A DNA stretch of 23,136 nt from a virus. Location of the stretch: positions 1 to 23,136 of the IMG/VR virus record IMGVR_UViG_3300029259_000322; one strand, 5' to 3'. Below, piece by piece: positions 1 through 7,822 of the stretch. Positions within the stretch are counted from its first letter, which is position 1. Every line of letters begins with the position of its first letter. Made by a program: the position numbers and the translations under genes. Below the pieces are notes generated by a model that saw only the letters and a list, made by a program, of their open reading frames with translations, had not been told where the DNA came from and made no database searches.

Positions 1-1
1 C

Positions 2-361
2 GTTCATCATGCAACCGGCGCTAAGCCTAGAAGGTGGTATCCAAAAGCATTTCAGGCTAATCCCAATGCTCGTTGGTGGTTTGGTATCGACGGTCTTCCG
101 GGGGAAAGCCACAAGTATAGAATAAACCAAGATGGTCAAAAGCTATTTGATATTATGGTTGAATCAATTCCATACTTGAAGCAACTGCCCGTATGGCAAT
201 ATATTGTATTTAAGTATAATCAAGACCATATTGAAGAAGCTCATAATATGGCAAAGGAAGCAGGAGTACAATTTATGGTAGTAAACTCTTCACGTTGGTT
301 AAAAGGCGAGGATGAATACCGGCCCACCAAAGAACATAGTCTGAGTTTACACGATGGATAA
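2..361 (+). CDS. Radical SAM enzyme core, C-terminal part (5' end outside window)
   Basis: The reading frame is open from the first full codon at position 2, so the gene begins upstream of the window; the internal ATG at 155 is not the likely start. The visible 119 residues correspond to the second half of a radical SAM barrel. They align by eye with the complete homologue at 1528-2223: WWFGIDGLPGE matches VTFAVDGVNQ, YIVFKYNQDHIEEA matches TIVFKHNEDYLDEI, and NSSRW matches TPSDRW. The CX3CX2C cluster motif would lie upstream and cannot be seen. The frame stops just after this conserved segment, and the cysteine-rich SPASM-like part follows as a separate gene with an 8-base overlap. Radical SAM chemistry is inferred from the homologue; the substrate is unknown. 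Confidence 0.75.
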   Translation, partial: VHHATGAKPRRWYPKAFQANPNARWWFGIDGLPGESHKYRINQDGQKLFDIMVESIPYLKQLPVWQYIVFKYNQDHIEEAHNMAKEAGVQFMVVNSSRWLKGEDEYRPTKEHSLSLHDG

Positions 362-701
362 TGAACGTACCGAGTTAGATCCAAAATGTTTAACTGGCGG
401 GCAGGAAGCCTTTGCTATTACAAATCGTGGTGAACTTATACCTTGTTGCTGGTTAGATAATCAAGTAAATAGAAGAGATCCTGATTACATAAAATTACTA
501 ATAGCAAGTCATATTCAGGATTACGACTCGATTGAAGAAATTCTATTTACAGACGAATGGCTCGAGTTTCAGGATAATCTAAAGAAAGGCATAGGGTTTA
601 CCATTTGTCATCTCGTGTGCAAAAAACGAGATTCTCCGCAGCACAAAAGAGAAACGTTTTACGGCGAAGACAACGACAAAAAATACGTAAAAGAAACGTG
701 A
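354..701 (+). CDS. Stand-alone SPASM-like Fe-S domain, partner of the upstream radical SAM core
   Basis: This 115-residue protein has the cysteine layout of a SPASM/twitch auxiliary-cluster domain: Cys12, a GELIPCCW segment with Cys31-Cys32, a DEWLEF helix, and a closing CX3C (Cys85, Cys89). In most known enzymes this domain is fused to the C-terminus of the radical SAM core and holds auxiliary 4Fe-4S clusters near the substrate. Here it begins at an ATG that overlaps the end of the core gene by 8 bases in a different frame. The same arrangement occurs at 2220-2600. No strong Shine-Dalgarno is visible, so translation probably depends on coupling to the upstream gene. A frameshifted single gene cannot be excluded for this copy alone. 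The tail beyond residue 90 is lysine-rich and probably flexible. Confidence 0.7.
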   Translation: MDNERTELDPKCLTGGQEAFAITNRGELIPCCWLDNQVNRRDPDYIKLLIASHIQDYDSIEEILFTDEWLEFQDNLKKGIGFTICHLVCKKRDSPQHKRETFYGEDNDKKYVKET

Positions 702-712
702 TAGATATCAAT

Positions 713-1528
713 ATGGTAGATTCGATACACAATATAAGAGAACAAGGTTACCTTGGGGTTGATTTCTATCTGTCTAAGTCTTGCAATAAGTCTTGCCACT
801 ATTGCACCGCCTGGACTTTAGAGATGCGCAACCTTCACGTGGACATGGAATTTTTAACTAATACTCTCGACGGGTTCGACGGTCATAGGGTGAATGTAAA
901 TTTACTTGGCGGTGAGCCGGGTTTAATTAAAAACCTTAAAGAGGTTATTGCCAAGGTCAAAACGTACGACAATATAAAACTATCGGTGCTTTCTAATTCT
1001 CTTATAAGAAAATTTCACCCGTATGTTCTAGAAGATCCTGAGATCTATTATGTTGAGCATTTAGTATTAGATTTCCACGAAGACAAAATAGAGAAGTTAG
1101 GCAACTTTCCCTTTTTCCCAGAGAATAATTTAAACAACTACAATCTAGTTATTAAGACGCCCGGTTATTATGAGCATCTGGCTAAACACGACATGTCCGA
1201 GCTAGATCATAAAAACACTTTACTCAAAGAGTTTAATTCCCGTTCTCCTAACTGGGCCAAAAATTCACAAGCACCCGAGTTCGACAGACGTATGTGTGCT
1301 GCCTTTCCTAAAGTGCCGGTGGTTGACTTTGAGATAAAAAAGATAAGACATTGCAGTAAGAAAGTAATTAATGGTTCTAAGGTGTTTGACGTTACTCGCG
1401 AAAACATACAAAAGATGATGAACTTTGAATTGTTTGGATTTGAAAAGTATTGTATAGGCTGTACTGAGCACATCGAAAAAAGACCCCCAGAACAAATATT
1501 AAGAATAATGGAAGCGGGAGTAGTGTAA
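713..1528 (+). CDS. One-piece radical SAM protein
   Basis: A radical SAM enzyme of about 271 residues, not split. Near the N-terminus it carries CNKSCHYC (CX3CX2C; Cys24, Cys28, Cys31 from the ATG at 713), which binds the SAM-ligating 4Fe-4S cluster, followed by LLGGEPG, the GGE motif that binds the SAM amino group. Cysteines near the C-terminus (RRMC, RHCSKK, KYCIGC) suggest an auxiliary cluster region. The open frame extends back to 605, but that part is a basic stretch reading through the preceding gene and is unlikely to be translated. A GTG at 698, which overlaps the upstream TGA by four bases, is a reasonable alternative start. The stop overlaps the next ATG as TAATG. Reaction and substrate are unknown. 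Confidence 0.8.
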   Translation: MVDSIHNIREQGYLGVDFYLSKSCNKSCHYCTAWTLEMRNLHVDMEFLTNTLDGFDGHRVNVNLLGGEPGLIKNLKEVIAKVKTYDNIKLSVLSNSLIRKFHPYVLEDPEIYYVEHLVLDFHEDKIEKLGNFPFFPENNLNNYNLVIKTPGYYEHLAKHDMSELDHKNTLLKEFNSRSPNWAKNSQAPEFDRRMCAAFPKVPVVDFEIKKIRHCSKKVINGSKVFDVTRENIQKMMNFELFGFEKYCIGCTEHIEKRPPEQILRIMEAGVV

Positions 1529-2223
1529 TGTATAATCATTACGGCCTTAATGTTTTCTTAGATATATCTACCTATTGCAATGCTGCTTGTCCTCAGTGTC
1601 ATAGGACTAATCCTAATGGTTTAGATAAAGCAGACTGGTTGCCTTTGGTAGCTTGGGACCTTGAAACTTTTAAGAAGGCTTATGATTTAGAGAACACTAA
1701 AATTCTATATCGCCATTTCTCGTTTTGTGGAACATGGGGAGATCCTGTAATGAATAGAGATCTTATAGGCATGGTAGAGTATATTATTAAATTCAGCAAT
1801 GCAGACGTTGGTATTGATACTAACGGAAGTATAAGAAATGAAGAGTGGTGGTGGGACCTAGGAAGAATTGGCGGTCGAAGGGTAAGAGTAACTTTCGCGG
1901 TTGATGGCGTAAACCAGAAAATGCATTCTCATTACAGACAAAAGACCGACCTTAAAAAAGTATTAAATAATATGGAATCACTATCAGGGACTATGTCTTA
2001 CCCTATAGTGCGAACTATAGTTTTTAAACACAATGAAGATTATCTTGATGAAATAGAAAAGTTGTGCAAAGATCACGGTGCATCGCATATAGAATTTACC
2101 CCTTCTGATCGTTGGGAGCGGGGATCGGTTTTTGAGTTTACGGACGGTAATGGTAACGCGCAACAACTAGAGCAAAGTAGAATACTTAAAGGTAGTCAAA
2201 AGCAAATCAGGAGGGAAGCATGA
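1528..2223 (+). CDS. Radical SAM enzyme core (split enzyme, core half)
   Basis: A 231-residue radical SAM core. CNAACPQC (Cys17, Cys21, Cys24) is the CX3CX2C cluster motif, preceded by FLDISTYC as the first strand. CGTWGDPVMNRD takes the place of the GGE/GEP motif, and DTNGS is a typical later strand. It is homologous to the partial gene at 2-361. The ATG overlaps the upstream stop (TAATG) and has a GGAG Shine-Dalgarno at 1517-1520. The protein ends after the conserved S-D-R-W segment and a polar tail, exactly where a SPASM-containing enzyme would continue; that continuation is the next gene, whose ATG overlaps this stop as ATGA. The two products probably form a complex. The substrate is unknown. 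Confidence 0.85.
   Translation: MYNHYGLNVFLDISTYCNAACPQCHRTNPNGLDKADWLPLVAWDLETFKKAYDLENTKILYRHFSFCGTWGDPVMNRDLIGMVEYIIKFSNADVGIDTNGSIRNEEWWWDLGRIGGRRVRVTFAVDGVNQKMHSHYRQKTDLKKVLNNMESLSGTMSYPIVRTIVFKHNEDYLDEIEKLCKDHGASHIEFTPSDRWERGSVFEFTDGNGNAQQLEQSRILKGSQKQIRREA
2209..2214 (+). promoter_or_regulatory. Strong Shine-Dalgarno for the split SPASM gene
   Basis: AGGAGG lies five bases before the ATG at 2220, inside the 3' end of the radical SAM core gene. It supports real internal translation initiation of the SPASM-like protein, and so a true two-gene arrangement rather than a sequencing frameshift. No slippery heptamer is visible next to it. Confidence 0.85.
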
Positions 2224-2600
2224 AAATTGTATGTAAGTGGTTAAAAGATAACCGAGTACTTGTTAACCCAGATGGTCAAGTATTACCATGTTGCTATCTT
2301 GCAAATCCCATTTGGGGTATAAAACAGAATTTTAAAGGCGGTGAAGCCGGGCGCCATAGCGATGGTGGCAAAGGGGTAGATTCAGACGGTAATCCATTAT
2401 CTGTTGTTTATAACCAGTTTGGTAAAGGTGGTAAATCAGCTATGGAAGAGTATAATAACGACAAAGAAAAGTATAATATCCATAATAACGATATGAAAGA
2501 TATTCTGAAAGGAAAATGGTTTACTAAAACATTACCGGATTCGTGGAAAGACGAAACTAAAACTATAAGCCAATGTAGGAAGTGGTGCGGAGAAGAATAA
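2220..2600 (+). CDS. Stand-alone SPASM-like Fe-S domain, partner of the radical SAM core at 1528
   Basis: This 126-residue protein begins with a cysteine (Cys5 in KIVCKW), then a beta-hairpin with NPDGQVLPCCYL (Cys24, Cys25), an ILKGKWF helix and a terminal CX3C (Cys119, Cys123). That is the order of a SPASM domain, including the usual G-x-V-x-P-C signature. It is preceded by a near-perfect Shine-Dalgarno and overlaps the core gene by four bases (ATGA), so it is translated as a separate chain. Between the two cysteine groups it carries a glycine-rich insert (about residues 38-75) that the paralogue at 354-701 lacks. It presumably supplies the auxiliary cluster and substrate contacts for the core subunit; that role is inference. 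Confidence 0.75.
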   Translation: MKIVCKWLKDNRVLVNPDGQVLPCCYLANPIWGIKQNFKGGEAGRHSDGGKGVDSDGNPLSVVYNQFGKGGKSAMEEYNNDKEKYNIHNNDMKDILKGKWFTKTLPDSWKDETKTISQCRKWCGEE

Positions 2601-2603
2601 AAA

Positions 2604-2638
2604 AGGGGGTTTACATTCCGATCGTGACATGTTATAAT
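2604..2638 (+). promoter_or_regulatory. Sigma70 / T4-early-type promoter upstream of the SGNH gene
   Basis: A -35 box TTTACA (2610-2615), embedded in AGGGGGTTTACA, is followed by a 17-base spacer and a perfect -10 box TATAAT (2633-2638). The predicted start site is near 2645, about 20 bases before the ATG at 2665. A GTTTAC-type -35 is, from memory, typical of T4 early promoters. An element with the same -35 surroundings and the same spacing lies upstream of gp25 on the other strand (20880-20914). The 64-base gap 2601-2664 holds this promoter and an AGGA ribosome site, but no terminator for the radical SAM genes. Confidence 0.8.
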
Positions 2639-2664
2639 AATTGCATCAATAGGAAACATGCATA

Positions 2665-3441
2665 ATGAAAAAGATTTTATTAGTAGGCGGTGATAGTTTT
2701 TCGGATCAAAGCTGTTCTAGCTACAAAGGAAAAGATATTCTAACATGGCCTGTATTATTGGCGGAAAAACTAAATATGAATTTAGTATGCGTGGCATCGG
2801 CGGGAGGAGGCAATGAACAAATATACTCTTCTATACAAGACTGGGTGTGTACTCACATAGATCATCCTCATCCGAAAGATATAGGCATGGTAATAGCTGC
2901 TTGGTCTAAAGCAGAAAGAATGGATTTTGAAATAAAAAATCATTTCGCGCCCTTTGACCGACTACAGAGTGGGGACCGTAGAACTTGGGAGAATACTCGT
3001 GTGTCGCCGAGAGGAGGGATTTTTCACTTTATGAGAAAAAGCGTAAGAAACTTTCACAACTTACAAATGCTATGCGAAAGTAACAATATACCATATAAGC
3101 AGTTCCAAGCGCTATCGTTGTTTAGGGACTATATAAATGAATACCACCGGCCAAATGCCGTAGGAGTAAGATTAAAATGTATAGATTATATTAGTGAATC
3201 CGCACAGTTTCGCCATATCAATAAAGATAATTTTATAGGTTGGCCGCTCTATGATGAAGCAGGGGGTTTTACGGTCGGAGATCTTAGATCGAAAAAATAT
3301 CGGGAAGCCATATATAACCTTGCTAATATTAGTCCTTATCATGGTGCTAAGGACGTCGACTGTGTAATTGGACCTAACGACACGCATCCAAATAAAATAG
3401 GCCATGAATTAATTGCGGAGTTCATCTATGAAAATCTTTAG
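2665..3441 (+). CDS. SGNH/GDSL-like hydrolase
   Basis: A 258-residue protein with the framework of the SGNH hydrolase family, which removes or transfers acyl groups through a serine nucleophile. The N-terminal strand runs into GGDSFS (block I; Ser11 as candidate nucleophile). ASAGGGNEQ (residues 44-52) fits the Gly/Asn oxyanion block, and the C-terminal NDTHPNKIGH (238-247) fits the catalytic acid-His block with His241. The usual acid position three residues before the His is Asn238, with Asp239 next to it, so the triad may be shifted or altered. No signal peptide is seen, so it probably acts in the cytoplasm. It is the first gene behind the promoter at 2604-2638 and overlaps the carbamoyltransferase by 14 bases. 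The substrate is unknown; acetylated glycan is one possibility. Confidence 0.65.
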   Translation: MKKILLVGGDSFSDQSCSSYKGKDILTWPVLLAEKLNMNLVCVASAGGGNEQIYSSIQDWVCTHIDHPHPKDIGMVIAAWSKAERMDFEIKNHFAPFDRLQSGDRRTWENTRVSPRGGIFHFMRKSVRNFHNLQMLCESNNIPYKQFQALSLFRDYINEYHRPNAVGVRLKCIDYISESAQFRHINKDNFIGWPLYDEAGGFTVGDLRSKKYREAIYNLANISPYHGAKDVDCVIGPNDTHPNKIGHELIAEFIYENL

Positions 3442-4936
3442 TGCAGCATTTGGTCCACACGACCATAACACATATGATGGAGTATTTCATAACCAAAGGG
3501 AAAGATATACTCGGCGTAAGCATAATATTCCATGGCATTATGATGCATACCCTCATCATAGCACAGTAGATAAAATGAACAAGGAAGACAAAAGTTCAGG
3601 TCAAGAATTTTATAAAGACTATTGGAAACCAGAAAATCATGAAATCTTTGCTTATACAACCACAGTCGGTGGTGTTGCGCAAATGCCTGAACTTGAATCA
3701 AAGAAAGAGTTTATGGACTGGCATCCTACTAACCTTTGGGATTATAAGAAAAGGGGAAACCTTTATTACATAGACCATCATCAATCGCATGCAGCTTATG
3801 CGTACTTAACTTCCGGCTTTGCTGAATCAGACATATTAGCAATTGACGGGCGGGGGTACAAATACAATACTGTATTTTTTGATAGAGATGGTTACCCCAA
3901 TATTCTAGATTTAGGCATTGGTGAAATATGGGATTGGTTTTCAAAAGAGCTTGACTTTGGTACTCTTGGTGCAAGTAAGGTAATGGGCTTAGTAGGTTAT
4001 AACAAGCCGGAACACATTCTATATGATCTCTATACGCTATTAGATCGGTTTTGGGATACAAAGGATAAAAGAGTAAGTAATATATGGAATGAATTAAGAT
4101 ATATTGCCAATAAAGAAAATCCTAGACATGTAGCATACACTTTGCAAAAGGCTACCGAGGAAAGAATTTTGGATGCCGTAAGGGAATTAAAAACTTCTGA
4201 CAATCTTTGTGTAACGGGCGGAGTTGCATACAATGGTTATGTAAACGAGTTACTTACGGAAGAATGGGATAACGTATTTGTTCCGCCCGCGCCGGGAGAC
4301 GAAGGCCAAGCCCTTGGAACGTATATGCATGCCGATTATATGCTAAACAAGAACACACATATTCCGTCTGTGTATGCAGGTAAAGAGTATGACTTTGTCG
4401 GCAAAGAGAAGGTAGATATAAAAGAAGTTGCTCAAGCAATTGCTGATGGTAAGATCATTGGTTGGTTCCAAGGTAAATCTGAGAGTGGGCATAGAGCACT
4501 GGGCAATAGAAGTATACTTGCCGATCCTAGAAATCCTAAGATAAAAAGTATTATTAACCACACGATTAAGATGCGGGAAGACTTTAGACCTTTTGCACCA
4601 AGTGTGCTCGAAGAACATTACCAAGAATACTTTGATACTGAAACACCGAGTCCTTATATGTCTCGCATTGTAAAAGTAAAGTCTGACAAAGTTCCTGGCA
4701 TTACCCACGTCGATGGAACAGCCCGCATCCAAACCGTTAACAGAGAACAGAATGAAAAGTTTTATGATCTGATTAACGAGTTCTATAAAATCACCGGCAT
4801 TCCCATGCTACTCAATACTAGCTTTAATTGTCAAGAGCCTATTGTCGAGACACCTACGGAAGCCATAGATACTTTTGAAAGAACTAAAATGGATATGTTG
4901 GTAATTAATGATTATATCATGCGTAAAATGGGGTAA
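3428..4936 (+). CDS. NodU/CmcH/TobZ-family carbamoyltransferase
   Basis: A complete 502-residue member of the family that transfers a carbamoyl group from carbamoyl phosphate, via carbamoyl-adenylate, to a hydroxyl. The Kae1-like domain holds HHQSHAAYA (His117, His118, His121), VTGGVAYNG (262-270) and PGDEGQALG around Asp291. The C-terminal YrdC-like part holds GHRALGNRSILADPR (from Gly354), KMREDFRPFAP and LLNTSFN. The proline of the usual GPRALG signature is His355. ATG 3428 is chosen because GGAG (3417-3420) sits seven bases upstream and the protein starts at the family's usual MKIF-like strand; the frame also has a TTG at 3413. Known family substrates are sugars and antibiotics, and phage members have been linked to carbamoylated hydroxymethyl bases. 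The acceptor here is unknown. Confidence 0.93.
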   Translation: MKIFSAAFGPHDHNTYDGVFHNQRERYTRRKHNIPWHYDAYPHHSTVDKMNKEDKSSGQEFYKDYWKPENHEIFAYTTTVGGVAQMPELESKKEFMDWHPTNLWDYKKRGNLYYIDHHQSHAAYAYLTSGFAESDILAIDGRGYKYNTVFFDRDGYPNILDLGIGEIWDWFSKELDFGTLGASKVMGLVGYNKPEHILYDLYTLLDRFWDTKDKRVSNIWNELRYIANKENPRHVAYTLQKATEERILDAVRELKTSDNLCVTGGVAYNGYVNELLTEEWDNVFVPPAPGDEGQALGTYMHADYMLNKNTHIPSVYAGKEYDFVGKEKVDIKEVAQAIADGKIIGWFQGKSESGHRALGNRSILADPRNPKIKSIINHTIKMREDFRPFAPSVLEEHYQEYFDTETPSPYMSRIVKVKSDKVPGITHVDGTARIQTVNREQNEKFYDLINEFYKITGIPMLLNTSFNCQEPIVETPTEAIDTFERTKMDMLVINDYIMRKMG

Positions 4937-6227
4937 CAAGTTTAGCCACGAACATGTGAACAGATTATATACGATGGTGGCTAAGAACATAAGCATCCCA
5001 TTTACATTTGTTTGCCATACGGAAAATCCCGAGAACATACACAAAGACATACAAATAAAACCTTTAGACACTTCTTTAGGTCTAGAAAAGTGGTGGTGGA
5101 AGCTAACACTATTTAATCAAGAACCCGGAGAACACATATTCTTCGATCTTGACGTAGTTATACAAAACAATCTACAACCTATTATTGATAGTATAAGACC
5201 TAACAAACTTTGTATGATAAAAGCCCTTTGGAAAACCTACGAACTAAAGGGCAATGACATGGATCATAACTCTTCTGTTATGGCATGGGGTGGTGATCTA
5301 TCTCATATATGGGATAAGTTTGAAGATGACGTTGAACATTACACTTGGGCATATAATGGCATAGACGGCTTTTTATATCACGAGATAAAAGATATAAACA
5401 CCTTTCCAGAAAAGCTAATCTACTCCAGACTGTTTGGTATTGATAAGGATAACTGTTATTCATACGGTGACTTTAAGGGATACTATGGTATGCCCGATTA
5501 TACGGTATGTATTTTTAATGGTTGGAGACGTGATAAGAAAGATGGCAAGTATCTGTTAGATGATTATGGCTATAAAGGTATGGAACATTACTGGGATGCT
5601 AAAACAAACTTTACAGGTATTGATACAAGAGTTTGGGAAGCTCTGTGGGAGTGTGAGTATTCAGGCGGTGACACTAAACATTTTTTAGATAGTATGTCGC
5701 CTAATCAAGTCGCATCTAAGGAATGGTTAATAGAAAATGTTAATAAACATCATCAACTTAGTATAAAGAAAGTTCAGTTGTGGGGTGGATGGTTCGCTCA
5801 CCCTATATCATCTATGCTTGTAAATGATTTATCCTCAGTCAATAGAATAACTAATCTCGACATAGATGAAAACGCTCTACATTATTGCAGGCTGTTAAAT
5901 TCTCATCTTAAATATCTTCATGTATTAGACACTCATTGTGCAGACGTATTAAATAAACATAAAACAGATATTGATACCGACTTAGTTATTAATACATCAT
6001 CTGAACATATGCCACCCCTATATACTATACTCGCAAAAAAAGAATACAAAAACACCTGTCTTTTTGCTGTACAAAGTAATAATATGTTTCACGTACCGGA
6101 TCATATCAACTGTGTAAACAGTGAAGACGAGTTAGTTGAAAATACTGGCTTAAAAGAAATATTATATAAAGGATCGCTAGATATGCCAAATGGATATAAA
6201 AGATTTATGGTAATTGGATATGCGTAG
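4908..6227 (+). CDS. Glycosyltransferase - SAM methyltransferase fusion
   Basis: A two-domain protein of 439 residues. Residues 1-210 form a GT-A type glycosyltransferase: it starts ISCVKWGNKF, has the KWWWKL segment and the metal/nucleotide-sugar motif FFDLDVV (Asp80, Asp82), and NSSVMAW fits the family's acceptor-side motif. Residues from about 245 look like a class I SAM-dependent methyltransferase: VQLWGGWF (289-296) as the glycine loop, LDID (317-320) as the acidic end of strand 2, then NTSSEHM (362-368), AVQSNNMF and HINC (399-402), a pattern I recall from phage methyltransferases. The ATG overlaps the carbamoyltransferase end by 29 bases, indicating coupling. Sugar donor, acceptor and methylated position are unknown. 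No membrane segment is seen. Confidence 0.75.
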   Translation: MIISCVKWGNKFSHEHVNRLYTMVAKNISIPFTFVCHTENPENIHKDIQIKPLDTSLGLEKWWWKLTLFNQEPGEHIFFDLDVVIQNNLQPIIDSIRPNKLCMIKALWKTYELKGNDMDHNSSVMAWGGDLSHIWDKFEDDVEHYTWAYNGIDGFLYHEIKDINTFPEKLIYSRLFGIDKDNCYSYGDFKGYYGMPDYTVCIFNGWRRDKKDGKYLLDDYGYKGMEHYWDAKTNFTGIDTRVWEALWECEYSGGDTKHFLDSMSPNQVASKEWLIENVNKHHQLSIKKVQLWGGWFAHPISSMLVNDLSSVNRITNLDIDENALHYCRLLNSHLKYLHVLDTHCADVLNKHKTDIDTDLVINTSSEHMPPLYTILAKKEYKNTCLFAVQSNNMFHVPDHINCVNSEDELVENTGLKEILYKGSLDMPNGYKRFMVIGYA

Positions 6228-7074
6228 AGTTATATACAGTTTCTACATAGACATTCCTAAAGAACATCTGGTATCACACCATGATTCTAAAGATAAGTTT
6301 GCTGATAACTATGAATGGTTGTTAGAATCTCAAAAAGCCTACGCTGATAAAATTGGTGTTGATTATAGACACTATGTTAAAGATCCGCTTTTTGATAACT
6401 ACGTTAAATGGTTTCAAGATAACTATCCCGACATTTCATATTACAACATTGTTAATTTCTGGAAGATAAAATTACTGTACGTTTTGTCTGAATGGTATGA
6501 CGAGGTGCTATACCTGGATATAGATGTTATACCAGTAACCGATTTAAACTTCTTTGAAGAGATGGATTTGTCAAAAGGGATTGCAATTATGACTGGCACT
6601 GCCAAAAGTCAGCAACCTACCGAGTGGAGAAATACTCTTAGATATAATCATGATGTTAGGTCTCCTATGGCTAAGATGTGGCACAGTAGTTGTATGCTGG
6701 GAGAGGCAGATATGTTGGTACTTAAACCGGATGTATTTAATACGGGAATAGTCGGTGCTACAAAGGGGCATATTCAGAAATTGGGCTACTTAGACGACTT
6801 CGAAGACACCCTAGATCTTATGTCTAATATGATAACAGATACGGATTTATACCCTAAGTCTATAAGTTATATGTTCGGATATGATAACGAAACCGTATGG
6901 GGATACAAGACTTATCTTAATAAAGTCGACTACCAAGTATTAGGAGAAGATTGGCACTACTTTATGGATAAGTGGAGTTATATAACAAAAGAAGCAAAGT
7001 TTGTTCATTGCGTAAGTAAAGACTTTAACTATGTAAGGCAATGGTGTGAAAAGAATAATATTCAGCCTGTATAG
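6220..7074 (+). CDS. DxD glycosyltransferase (GT8-like), copy 1
   Basis: A 284-residue GT-A fold glycosyltransferase. It begins MRRVIYSFYIDIP, then has a helix AYADKIGVDY, the strand and metal-binding motif LYLDIDVIP (Asp100, Asp102), and VFNTGIVGA, which fits the NxG segment of GT8-like enzymes. A late HCVSKDF segment could supply the C-terminal histidine of the active site. ATG 6220 overlaps the upstream stop by eight bases; a TTG at 6214 is in frame but less likely. It is paralogous to the next gene, sharing the N-terminal strand, the A-x-x-IGxDY helix and the DxD context, which points to tandem duplication. Donor and acceptor sugars are unknown. Confidence 0.8.
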   Translation: MRRVIYSFYIDIPKEHLVSHHDSKDKFADNYEWLLESQKAYADKIGVDYRHYVKDPLFDNYVKWFQDNYPDISYYNIVNFWKIKLLYVLSEWYDEVLYLDIDVIPVTDLNFFEEMDLSKGIAIMTGTAKSQQPTEWRNTLRYNHDVRSPMAKMWHSSCMLGEADMLVLKPDVFNTGIVGATKGHIQKLGYLDDFEDTLDLMSNMITDTDLYPKSISYMFGYDNETVWGYKTYLNKVDYQVLGEDWHYFMDKWSYITKEAKFVHCVSKDFNYVRQWCEKNNIQPV

Positions 7075-7822
7075 AAACGATCTTGCTGACCACGATTCTG
7101 TTCCTTCGTTTAAGAGAGAACAGTTTATTAAGTATGCGGATCAACTAGAGCAGAAGCAAAGAGAGTATGCTAACCTTATAGGTGCAGACTATCTGCTTAT
7201 TGAGCCTACTTCGACCGACTATATCGAGGTTCAATTTCAAAAGTTAAACGCGTTTGAAACATTAGCTAAAGATTATGACGAGGTAATGTATATGGACTTC
7301 GATGTCATACCTCTTACGACAGTCAACATCTTTGAACGATTTAATCTAAACACGGTGTGTTCTTTTAGTATACAAATACCGGAAATGACCAAAGAAGACT
7401 TTCGTTACCGGCGCGAGGTCGGACACGAATGGCACTGCATGGATATGTATACTAAGACATGTAATAAGAAAGCTATGTTAGCGCTGGATGGTATATCTGG
7501 CACTCATAGTTGCATTAATACAGGAGTCATTGTAATGAATTCTGATTGCATACGCAACCTAAACTTTGCGGAAAGATACACAGAAGGGGTAGAGATATTC
7601 AAGGAGTCACTTAGTGATAATCTCTATCCTGAAGAAATGACTAGGAACTGGGTATTGAACAACGAGGTTATGTTATCTTATATAATAGAAAAGCATGCCA
7701 TTCCCTTTACTAATATAGGAATGGCATGGAATTTTATACTAGATCACAACCATCAGACTATGACTCCTGCAGCACACTTATTACATTTTGTTCATAAAAA
7801 GTTTGAACTATTTTTTGGATGA
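7046..7822 (+). CDS. DxD glycosyltransferase (GT8-like), copy 2
   Basis: A 258-residue paralogue of the previous gene: MKRIIFSLYRN, REYANLIGADY, MYMDFDVIP (Asp84, Asp86) and INTGVIVMN are in the same order. The start is GTG at 7046, with AAGG (7035-7038) seven bases upstream, and overlaps the previous gene by 29 bases. The ending HLLHFVHKKFELFFG carries histidines typical of the C-terminal lid of GT8-like enzymes. It is the last gene of the + strand cassette and its final 15 bases overlap the last - strand gene tail to tail. An 11-base inverted repeat lies within its 3' part. Two adjacent copies suggest successive additions to one glycan, but this is inference. Confidence 0.8.
   Translation: MKRIIFSLYRNDLADHDSVPSFKREQFIKYADQLEQKQREYANLIGADYLLIEPTSTDYIEVQFQKLNAFETLAKDYDEVMYMDFDVIPLTTVNIFERFNLNTVCSFSIQIPEMTKEDFRYRREVGHEWHCMDMYTKTCNKKAMLALDGISGTHSCINTGVIVMNSDCIRNLNFAERYTEGVEIFKESLSDNLYPEEMTRNWVLNNEVMLSYIIEKHAIPFTNIGMAWNFILDHNHQTMTPAAHLLHFVHKKFELFFG
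7694..7728. repeat. 11-bp perfect inverted repeat inside the last glycosyltransferase gene
   Basis: CATGCCATTCC (7694-7704) and GGAATGGCATG (7718-7728) are exact reverse complements separated by 13 bases. The repeat encodes H-A-I-P and G-M-A-W in the protein. A short AATTTTAT run follows on the + strand. It could form an RNA hairpin or a protein site near the convergent junction, or be a coincidence of coding sequence. Confidence 0.5.

Follow-up and report, generated by a model that had tools for sequence, protein, structure and literature searches.

Separate radical SAM core and SPASM-like genes in a T4-like marine phage island and its viral relatives: candidate two-subunit enzymes

A radical SAM core cleaves SAM with a cluster of its own, and radical SAM proteins of QueE size can work without auxiliary domains. 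According to PMC9012708, SPASM and Twitch domains extend radical SAM enzymes at the C-terminus, in about 165,000 genes. The role of the auxiliary clusters that these domains carry is still debated. Proteins with an N-terminal Twitch domain already form a named NCBI family (NF033640, N_Twi_rSAM), and radical SAM genes are likewise already known to be numerous in some T4-like marine viruses, with 12 of them in one genome (PMC5332604). In the open-access literature searched we found no description of a stand-alone SPASM or auxiliary-cluster subunit. Here we describe a viral locus in which core and SPASM-like domain lie in separate genes, and we follow this arrangement through the relatives of both.

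Two core genes and their small neighbors

The window (the whole stretch of DNA analyzed, 23,136 nucleotides from record IMGVR_UViG_3300029259_000322) covers part of the genome of a T4-like marine myovirus. On its minus strand, PHROGs identify genes for the baseplate wedge and hub, and its gp6-like gene is nearest to those of Phage C48C1, Pelagibacter phage HTVC008M and Methylophilales phage Melnitz (33-38% identity). The plus strand opens with a dense metabolic island, radical SAM genes first, in the order core 1, SPASM 1, one-piece radical SAM gene, core 2, SPASM 2, DUF6071-like gene, carbamoyltransferase and three glycosyltransferase-like genes. The features that concern us are as follows.

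2-361, plus strand: core 1, a radical SAM core gene of which only the 3' part is present (119 of 214 aa; full gene in L043, 5001-5645)
354-701, plus strand: putative SPASM/Twitch subunit 1 (sp1), 115 aa, with C12, PCC30-32 and C85xxxC89 (PF13186 18.6 bits, E 0.0023, below the cut-off of 21.5)
713-1528, plus strand: third radical SAM gene, in one piece, about 271 aa (PF04055 below cut-off)
1528-2223, plus strand: core 2, a complete radical SAM core gene, 231 aa, with C17xxxC21xxC24 (PF04055 32.9 bits, above the cut-off of 29.5)
2209-2214, plus strand: AGGAGG, a Shine-Dalgarno-like site within the 3' end of core 2, 5 nt ahead of ATG2220 (read directly)
2220-2600, plus strand: putative SPASM/Twitch subunit 2 (sp2), 126 aa, with C5, PCC23-25 and C119xxxC123 (PF13186 26.0 bits, above the cut-off of 21.5)
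3413-4936, plus strand: NodU-like carbamoyltransferase, genomic context (PF16861, 8.9e-69; phrog_1601)
4908-6227, plus strand: first of three glycosyltransferase-like genes, genomic context (phrog_1962)
6214-7074, plus strand: second glycosyltransferase-like gene, genomic context (PF01501)
7046-7822, plus strand: third glycosyltransferase-like gene, genomic context (PF01501)

An earlier note on this DNA had proposed two pairs of a core gene and a small gene joined by short overlaps, and both pairs and both overlaps were confirmed: core 1 and sp1 share 8 nt (354-361), and core 2 and sp2 share 4 nt (ATGA, 2220-2223). The cores had also been said to end just after an SxRW or SDRW segment; their ends in fact lie 19 and 35 residues beyond it. 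Only the last 119 residues of core 1 fall in the window, because the contig starts inside the gene. The whole 214-aa protein, with C25xxxC29xxC32 and the same overlap with its small gene, is encoded at L043 (and likewise at L019); both loci, together with L005, are contig IMGVR_UViG_3300029264_000244. This second contig aligns without gaps to window positions 1-5379, differs there by 10 mismatches (99.8% identity) and covers both junctions. The same split is found in the isolated Pelagibacter phage Mosig EXVC030M, in which Mosig_00084, 57% identical to core 1 and annotated as a 'putative molybdenum cofactor biosynthesis enzyme', overlaps Mosig_00085, annotated as a 'hypothetical protein', by 8 nt. 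The full core 1 scores 19.1 bits against the PF04055 cut-off of 29.5, though its CX3CX2C motif is intact.

The third radical SAM gene, which sits between the two split pairs and was absent from the earlier finding, has C-terminal cysteines of its own (C-x18-C...CX2C) and holds the same place between pairs in L001.

The cysteine pattern attributed to the small genes stands in part: a Cys, GxxxPCC and CX3C occur in both, and the CX3C lies near the end only in sp2 (C119 and C123 of 126 residues), being 26 aa from the end in sp1 (C85 and C89 of 115). The SPASM-like label also needs qualification. PF13186 matches both proteins (sp1 below cut-off), and a paralogue scores 22.8 bits; the sp1 and sp2 alignments hold only five conserved cysteines (sp1 C12, C31, C32, C85 and C89; sp2 C5, C24, C25, C119 and C123, in the pattern C-x18-P-C-C-...-C-x3-C) and so lack the seven-cysteine motif of a full two-cluster SPASM domain. 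Since five cysteines are too few for that motif, one auxiliary cluster fits, and a subunit of this kind would probably carry a single cluster as Twitch domains do; the conserved cysteines suffice for four ligands, with a spacing of C-x18-C...CX3C rather than CX2C. The AGGAGG site, cited earlier as an argument against a sequencing error and for a heterodimeric system, is present but not general in the family, in that a simple scan found a Shine-Dalgarno-like motif of any kind before 31 of 84 related SPASM starts.

Split and fused relatives

Separate core and SPASM genes are the rule in this family. Profile scans of viral contigs yielded 359 relatives of core 1, of which the best 80 loci were taken, and 221 relatives of core 2, of which the best 79 were taken. 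The cores were clustered at 90% identity into 109 clusters, 106 of them readable after hand inspection, during which two cases first placed 'elsewhere' proved to be downstream SPASM genes with a longer overlap and two 'upstream' cases proved to be reversed fusions. Among these best-scoring loci (80 of 359 and 79 of 221), 86 of the 106 readable clusters (81%) have separate genes, 18 carry a core-SPASM fusion and 2 a SPASM-core fusion. Since the collection consists of the best-scoring relatives of two split proteins, this split fraction holds for their neighborhood and not for phage radical SAM proteins as a whole. The core 1 clusters comprise 50 split, 1 fused and 2 reversed (best 80 of 359 loci), and the core 2 clusters 36 split and 17 fused (best 79 of 221). 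The earlier proposal would have failed had all close homologues been fused, and the count came out the opposite way. With the two 'elsewhere' cases inspected, every non-redundant core with readable surroundings has a SPASM gene or domain nearby.

The position of the SPASM gene varies: it lies downstream of the core, upstream of it (the L026-L038 group), or past an inserted gene, as in L030, L032, L034, L035 and L036, where a gene of about 1.5 kb separates the two. The inserted gene of L030, between sp1 and core 1, was considered as a B12 enzyme; this identity was rejected, the gene being an N_Twi_rSAM. Across the 90%-identity clusters, the SPASM start lies between -52 and +3 nt from the core stop (mode -4), and the SPASM gene uses both of the other frames relative to the core (43 and 31 cases; the same frame in 2). 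The cysteine pattern is kept in 81 of the 84 SPASM subunits that lie beside related cores in the best-scoring loci collected, and for this reason the pairs cannot be due to chance; the three exceptions have an unread residue at the first cysteine, a longer spacing, and Q in place of P. The CX3CX2C motif is kept in 83 of the 84 related cores from the same loci.

Core 1 and core 2 form two well-separated clades. The earlier description of the pairs as independent copies went further than the trees allow: these fit more than one ancestral state, and the split may already have existed in the common ancestor of core 1 and core 2. Between split and fused states, the trees require three changes without an outgroup and four with the Campylobacter phage CP220 proteins as outgroup. 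These more distant CP220 proteins themselves appear fused, judged by length and motifs. So far as these scans reach, the family is viral. A bacterial origin was rejected: scanning 84,980 prokaryote species genomes gave three loci only, and the one in a Parcubacteria bin is probably the same phage sequence as viral contig 2785510822_000012, because its contig has the same length (11,572 b).

The small protein as probable partner of the core

Natural fusions join the two parts in either order. Core-SPASM fusions occur (for example, L006, 354 aa), as do SPASM-core fusions (L142, L143, L145, L151, L156 and L187); in L143, C14, PCC33-35 and C97xxxC101 precede C156xxxC160xxC163. In L009, the SPASM protein adjoining core 1 shares a chain with a glycosyltransferase domain (phrog_1962, residues 115-360) that is 30% identical over 138 aa to the product of window gene 4908-6227.

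Distances among cores correlate with those among their adjacent SPASM proteins, both for core 1 (r = 0.75, n = 48 pairs) and for core 2 (r = 0.61, n = 36 pairs), with 0 of 2000 shuffles as high. Because a distance correlation ignores phage phylogeny, genomes with two pairs were used as an internal control. In those with two core 1 pairs, a core's own SPASM protein fits it better than does that of the other pair in 9 of 10 comparisons, with contrasts such as 0.84 versus 0.04, in a set of five loci of which three look mutually related and in which L020_719 is near zero for both partners. Physical linkage, or the linked inheritance of adjacent genes, could contribute to the co-variation. Taken together, the fusions in both orders and the within-genome co-variation favor a complex of core and SPASM protein.

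The AlphaFold2 model of the fused relative L006, for which the alignment rows were split cores and split SPASM proteins (those of the window included), has a pLDDT of 94.8 and a pTM of 0.92. Its nearest PDB folds are BlsE (cytosylglucuronate decarboxylase), SuiB, SkfB, anSME, MoaA, SpeY and BtrN; when PDB sequences were searched with the SPASM profile, the only hits were chance ones to designed TIM barrels. Core 2 of the window aligns to L006 up to about residue 223 and sp2 to residues 246-335 (5-95% range); the gene break therefore corresponds to the linker just ahead of the first auxiliary cysteine. The reversed fusion L143 was modeled poorly (pLDDT 61.9), with alignments that placed SPASM residues on the core discarded, and its model was set aside as evidence that docking is alike in both orders.

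The small protein might instead be a free iron-sulfur protein, carrying electrons or binding substrate for several radical SAM enzymes of the island. The islands do hold several such enzymes (N_Twi_rSAM proteins among them), the SPASM domain of L009 is attached to a glycosyltransferase in place of a core, and PapB has been proposed to transfer electrons between molecules, likely through an auxiliary cluster (PMC10470005); against this, the small gene usually lies directly beside one core, is fused to a core in both orders and co-varies with its own partner within genomes, and we regard a shared protein as unlikely. Cores that act alone, beside small proteins that are separate enzymes or regulators sharing only SPASM ancestry, would be in keeping with radical SAM proteins of QueE size and with the core-only proteins in viral structure libraries (A0A6J7WZ72), but the natural core-SPASM fusions and the presence of a SPASM gene or domain near every readable non-redundant core make this very improbable. 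Overlapping genes in different frames, found at many junctions, would also be expected if programmed ribosomal frameshifting yielded a fused protein and the split were only apparent. We give this less credence still: the small genes possess start codons of their own, and in several loci the SPASM gene precedes the core or another gene lies between them. Since gap or overlap length, frame and gene order all vary, a programmed frameshift (considered under the heading FRAMESHIFTING) was rejected as a general cause. Finally, an indel from sequencing or assembly, or a decaying gene, might be suspected at a contig end where core 1 is cut at base 2, but its probability is negligible, as the earlier note had argued of sequencing error: an indel error is excluded because the second contig spans both junctions without gaps, and the split recurs in the complete genome of the isolate Mosig and in most clusters, with invariant cysteines and with some SPASM genes upstream of their cores.

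From the sequence comparisons and the model, it is likely that each pair forms one two-subunit radical SAM-SPASM/Twitch enzyme with one auxiliary cluster. The core subunit would be a partial TIM barrel whose CX3CX2C motif binds the SAM-cleaving [4Fe-4S] cluster, and would generate the 5'-deoxyadenosyl radical. The small subunit would be a SPASM/Twitch domain on its own, with one auxiliary [4Fe-4S] cluster bound by the invariant cysteines, and would dock in trans at the open end of the barrel in the manner of the C-terminal domain of one-chain enzymes. Overlap of the genes may couple synthesis of the subunits in roughly equal amounts.

The pairs probably sit in a glycan-decoration island. As to their chemistry, we tentatively suggest oxidation, dehydration or epimerization of a sugar or nucleotide sugar for phage-encoded glycan decoration, with an electron accepted or given by the auxiliary cluster, because BlsE, BtrN, SpeY and DesII are among the nearest folds, because the carbamoyltransferase and glycosyltransferases adjoin, and because relative loci contain DegT/DnrJ genes (30 of 90 loci have an aminotransferase cluster of the DegT/DnrJ type, and a DegT/DnrJ-like gene immediately precedes core 1 in L043) and, in L037, an N_Twi_rSAM-NodU fusion. 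The substrate is guessed from neighbors and fold only. With rather less than even confidence, we can also envisage that T4-like marine phages possess a modular system whose auxiliary-cluster domain is detachable, being a separate subunit by default and open to fusion with its core in either order or with a glycosyltransferase; with several cognate pairs per genome, one island would then build a set of related sugar-modifying radical enzymes.

Implications and comparison with described systems

If the two-subunit form is correct, a catalytic core could be examined in the presence and absence of its auxiliary cluster by clean add-back, in place of the cluster-removing mutations used to probe the role of that cluster. 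The Mosig annotations, a hypothetical protein beside a supposed molybdenum-cofactor enzyme, are a warning for the annotation of such pairs.

Two described systems also involve separate genes. In the split lipoyl synthase LipS1/LipS2, a radical SAM reaction likewise needs two separately encoded proteins; there, however, both partners are radical SAM proteins, and neither is known as a stand-alone SPASM subunit. In GeoRSP (TIGR04303 GeoRSP_rSAM and TIGR04304 GeoRSP_SPASM), we take it from the names that a SPASM protein is encoded beside a radical SAM protein. The GeoRSP_SPASM profile differs in spanning 293 positions, and has no match in the window at E values up to 10.

The N_Twi_rSAM proteins (NF033640) resemble the reversed fusion L143 in having the Twitch domain N-terminal to the core, and members occur in the same islands (L026, 294 bits; L030, 277 bits; L037, 289 bits). 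They differ in being one chain, and the window proteins fall below the family cut-off of 170 bits: core 2 reaches 27.6 bits through its core part only, and sp1 and sp2 have no match to this profile. With the SPASM/Twitch enzymes (BtrN, SpeY, BlsE, MoaA, anSME, SuiB and PqqE) the phage pairs share a core and an auxiliary [4Fe-4S] domain, as predicted here, and their five-cysteine pattern closely resembles that of Twitch domains with one cluster. In those enzymes the auxiliary domain is on the same chain as the core (PMC9012708), whereas the phage domain is a separate gene, both in the window and in 86 of the 106 readable clusters.

Genes flanking the radical SAM pairs

The overlapping contig IMGVR_UViG_3300029264_000244 (L043) carries the continuation of the island upstream of core 1 (L043:129-5028), and the window itself encodes a further protein at 2665-3441:

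Within L043:129-5028, minus strand: further radical SAM gene with a C-terminal PCC and cysteines
Within L043:129-5028: 417-aa gene with CX3CX2C
Within L043:129-5028: QueC-like PP-loop protein
Within L043:129-5028: gene that reads as DegT/DnrJ aminotransferase-like
Window 2665-3441: 258-aa protein with weak DUF6071 likeness (PF19547, under the cut-off)

Like SGNH hydrolases, the last of these carries a GDS motif close to the beginning of the protein. By appearance it resembles a 260-aa gene of a relative locus (L001:979-1761), whose cluster occurs in 35 of the 90 relative loci.

Probable duplication of the cassette

Two core-SPASM pairs of different subfamilies share one locus in each of L091, L095, L074, L103, L104 and L119, which suggests that the two-gene cassette was repeatedly duplicated and specialised.

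Fusions and domain order

A SPASM domain is fused to the N-terminus of a glycosyltransferase (phrog_1962) at L009:6728-7813, following a core without SPASM; L182:7964-9055 is similar to this gene in length and position. In an 872-aa protein (L037:6615-9232), N_Twi_rSAM (289 bits) is joined at residues 720-868 by the C-terminal region of a NodU carbamoyltransferase.

A single-chain reversed fusion, with an N-terminal SPASM domain and a C-terminal radical SAM core, is encoded at L143:6074-7162, and also in L142, L145, L151, L156 and L187. The last (PBQF01000077.1; 11,572 b), binned as a Parcubacteria genome, is identical in length to viral contig IMGVR 2785510822_000012 and is probably phage sequence inside a metagenome bin. 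The one-chain family NF033640 has the same domain order as these reversed fusions, but the L143 group belongs to the core-1 family.
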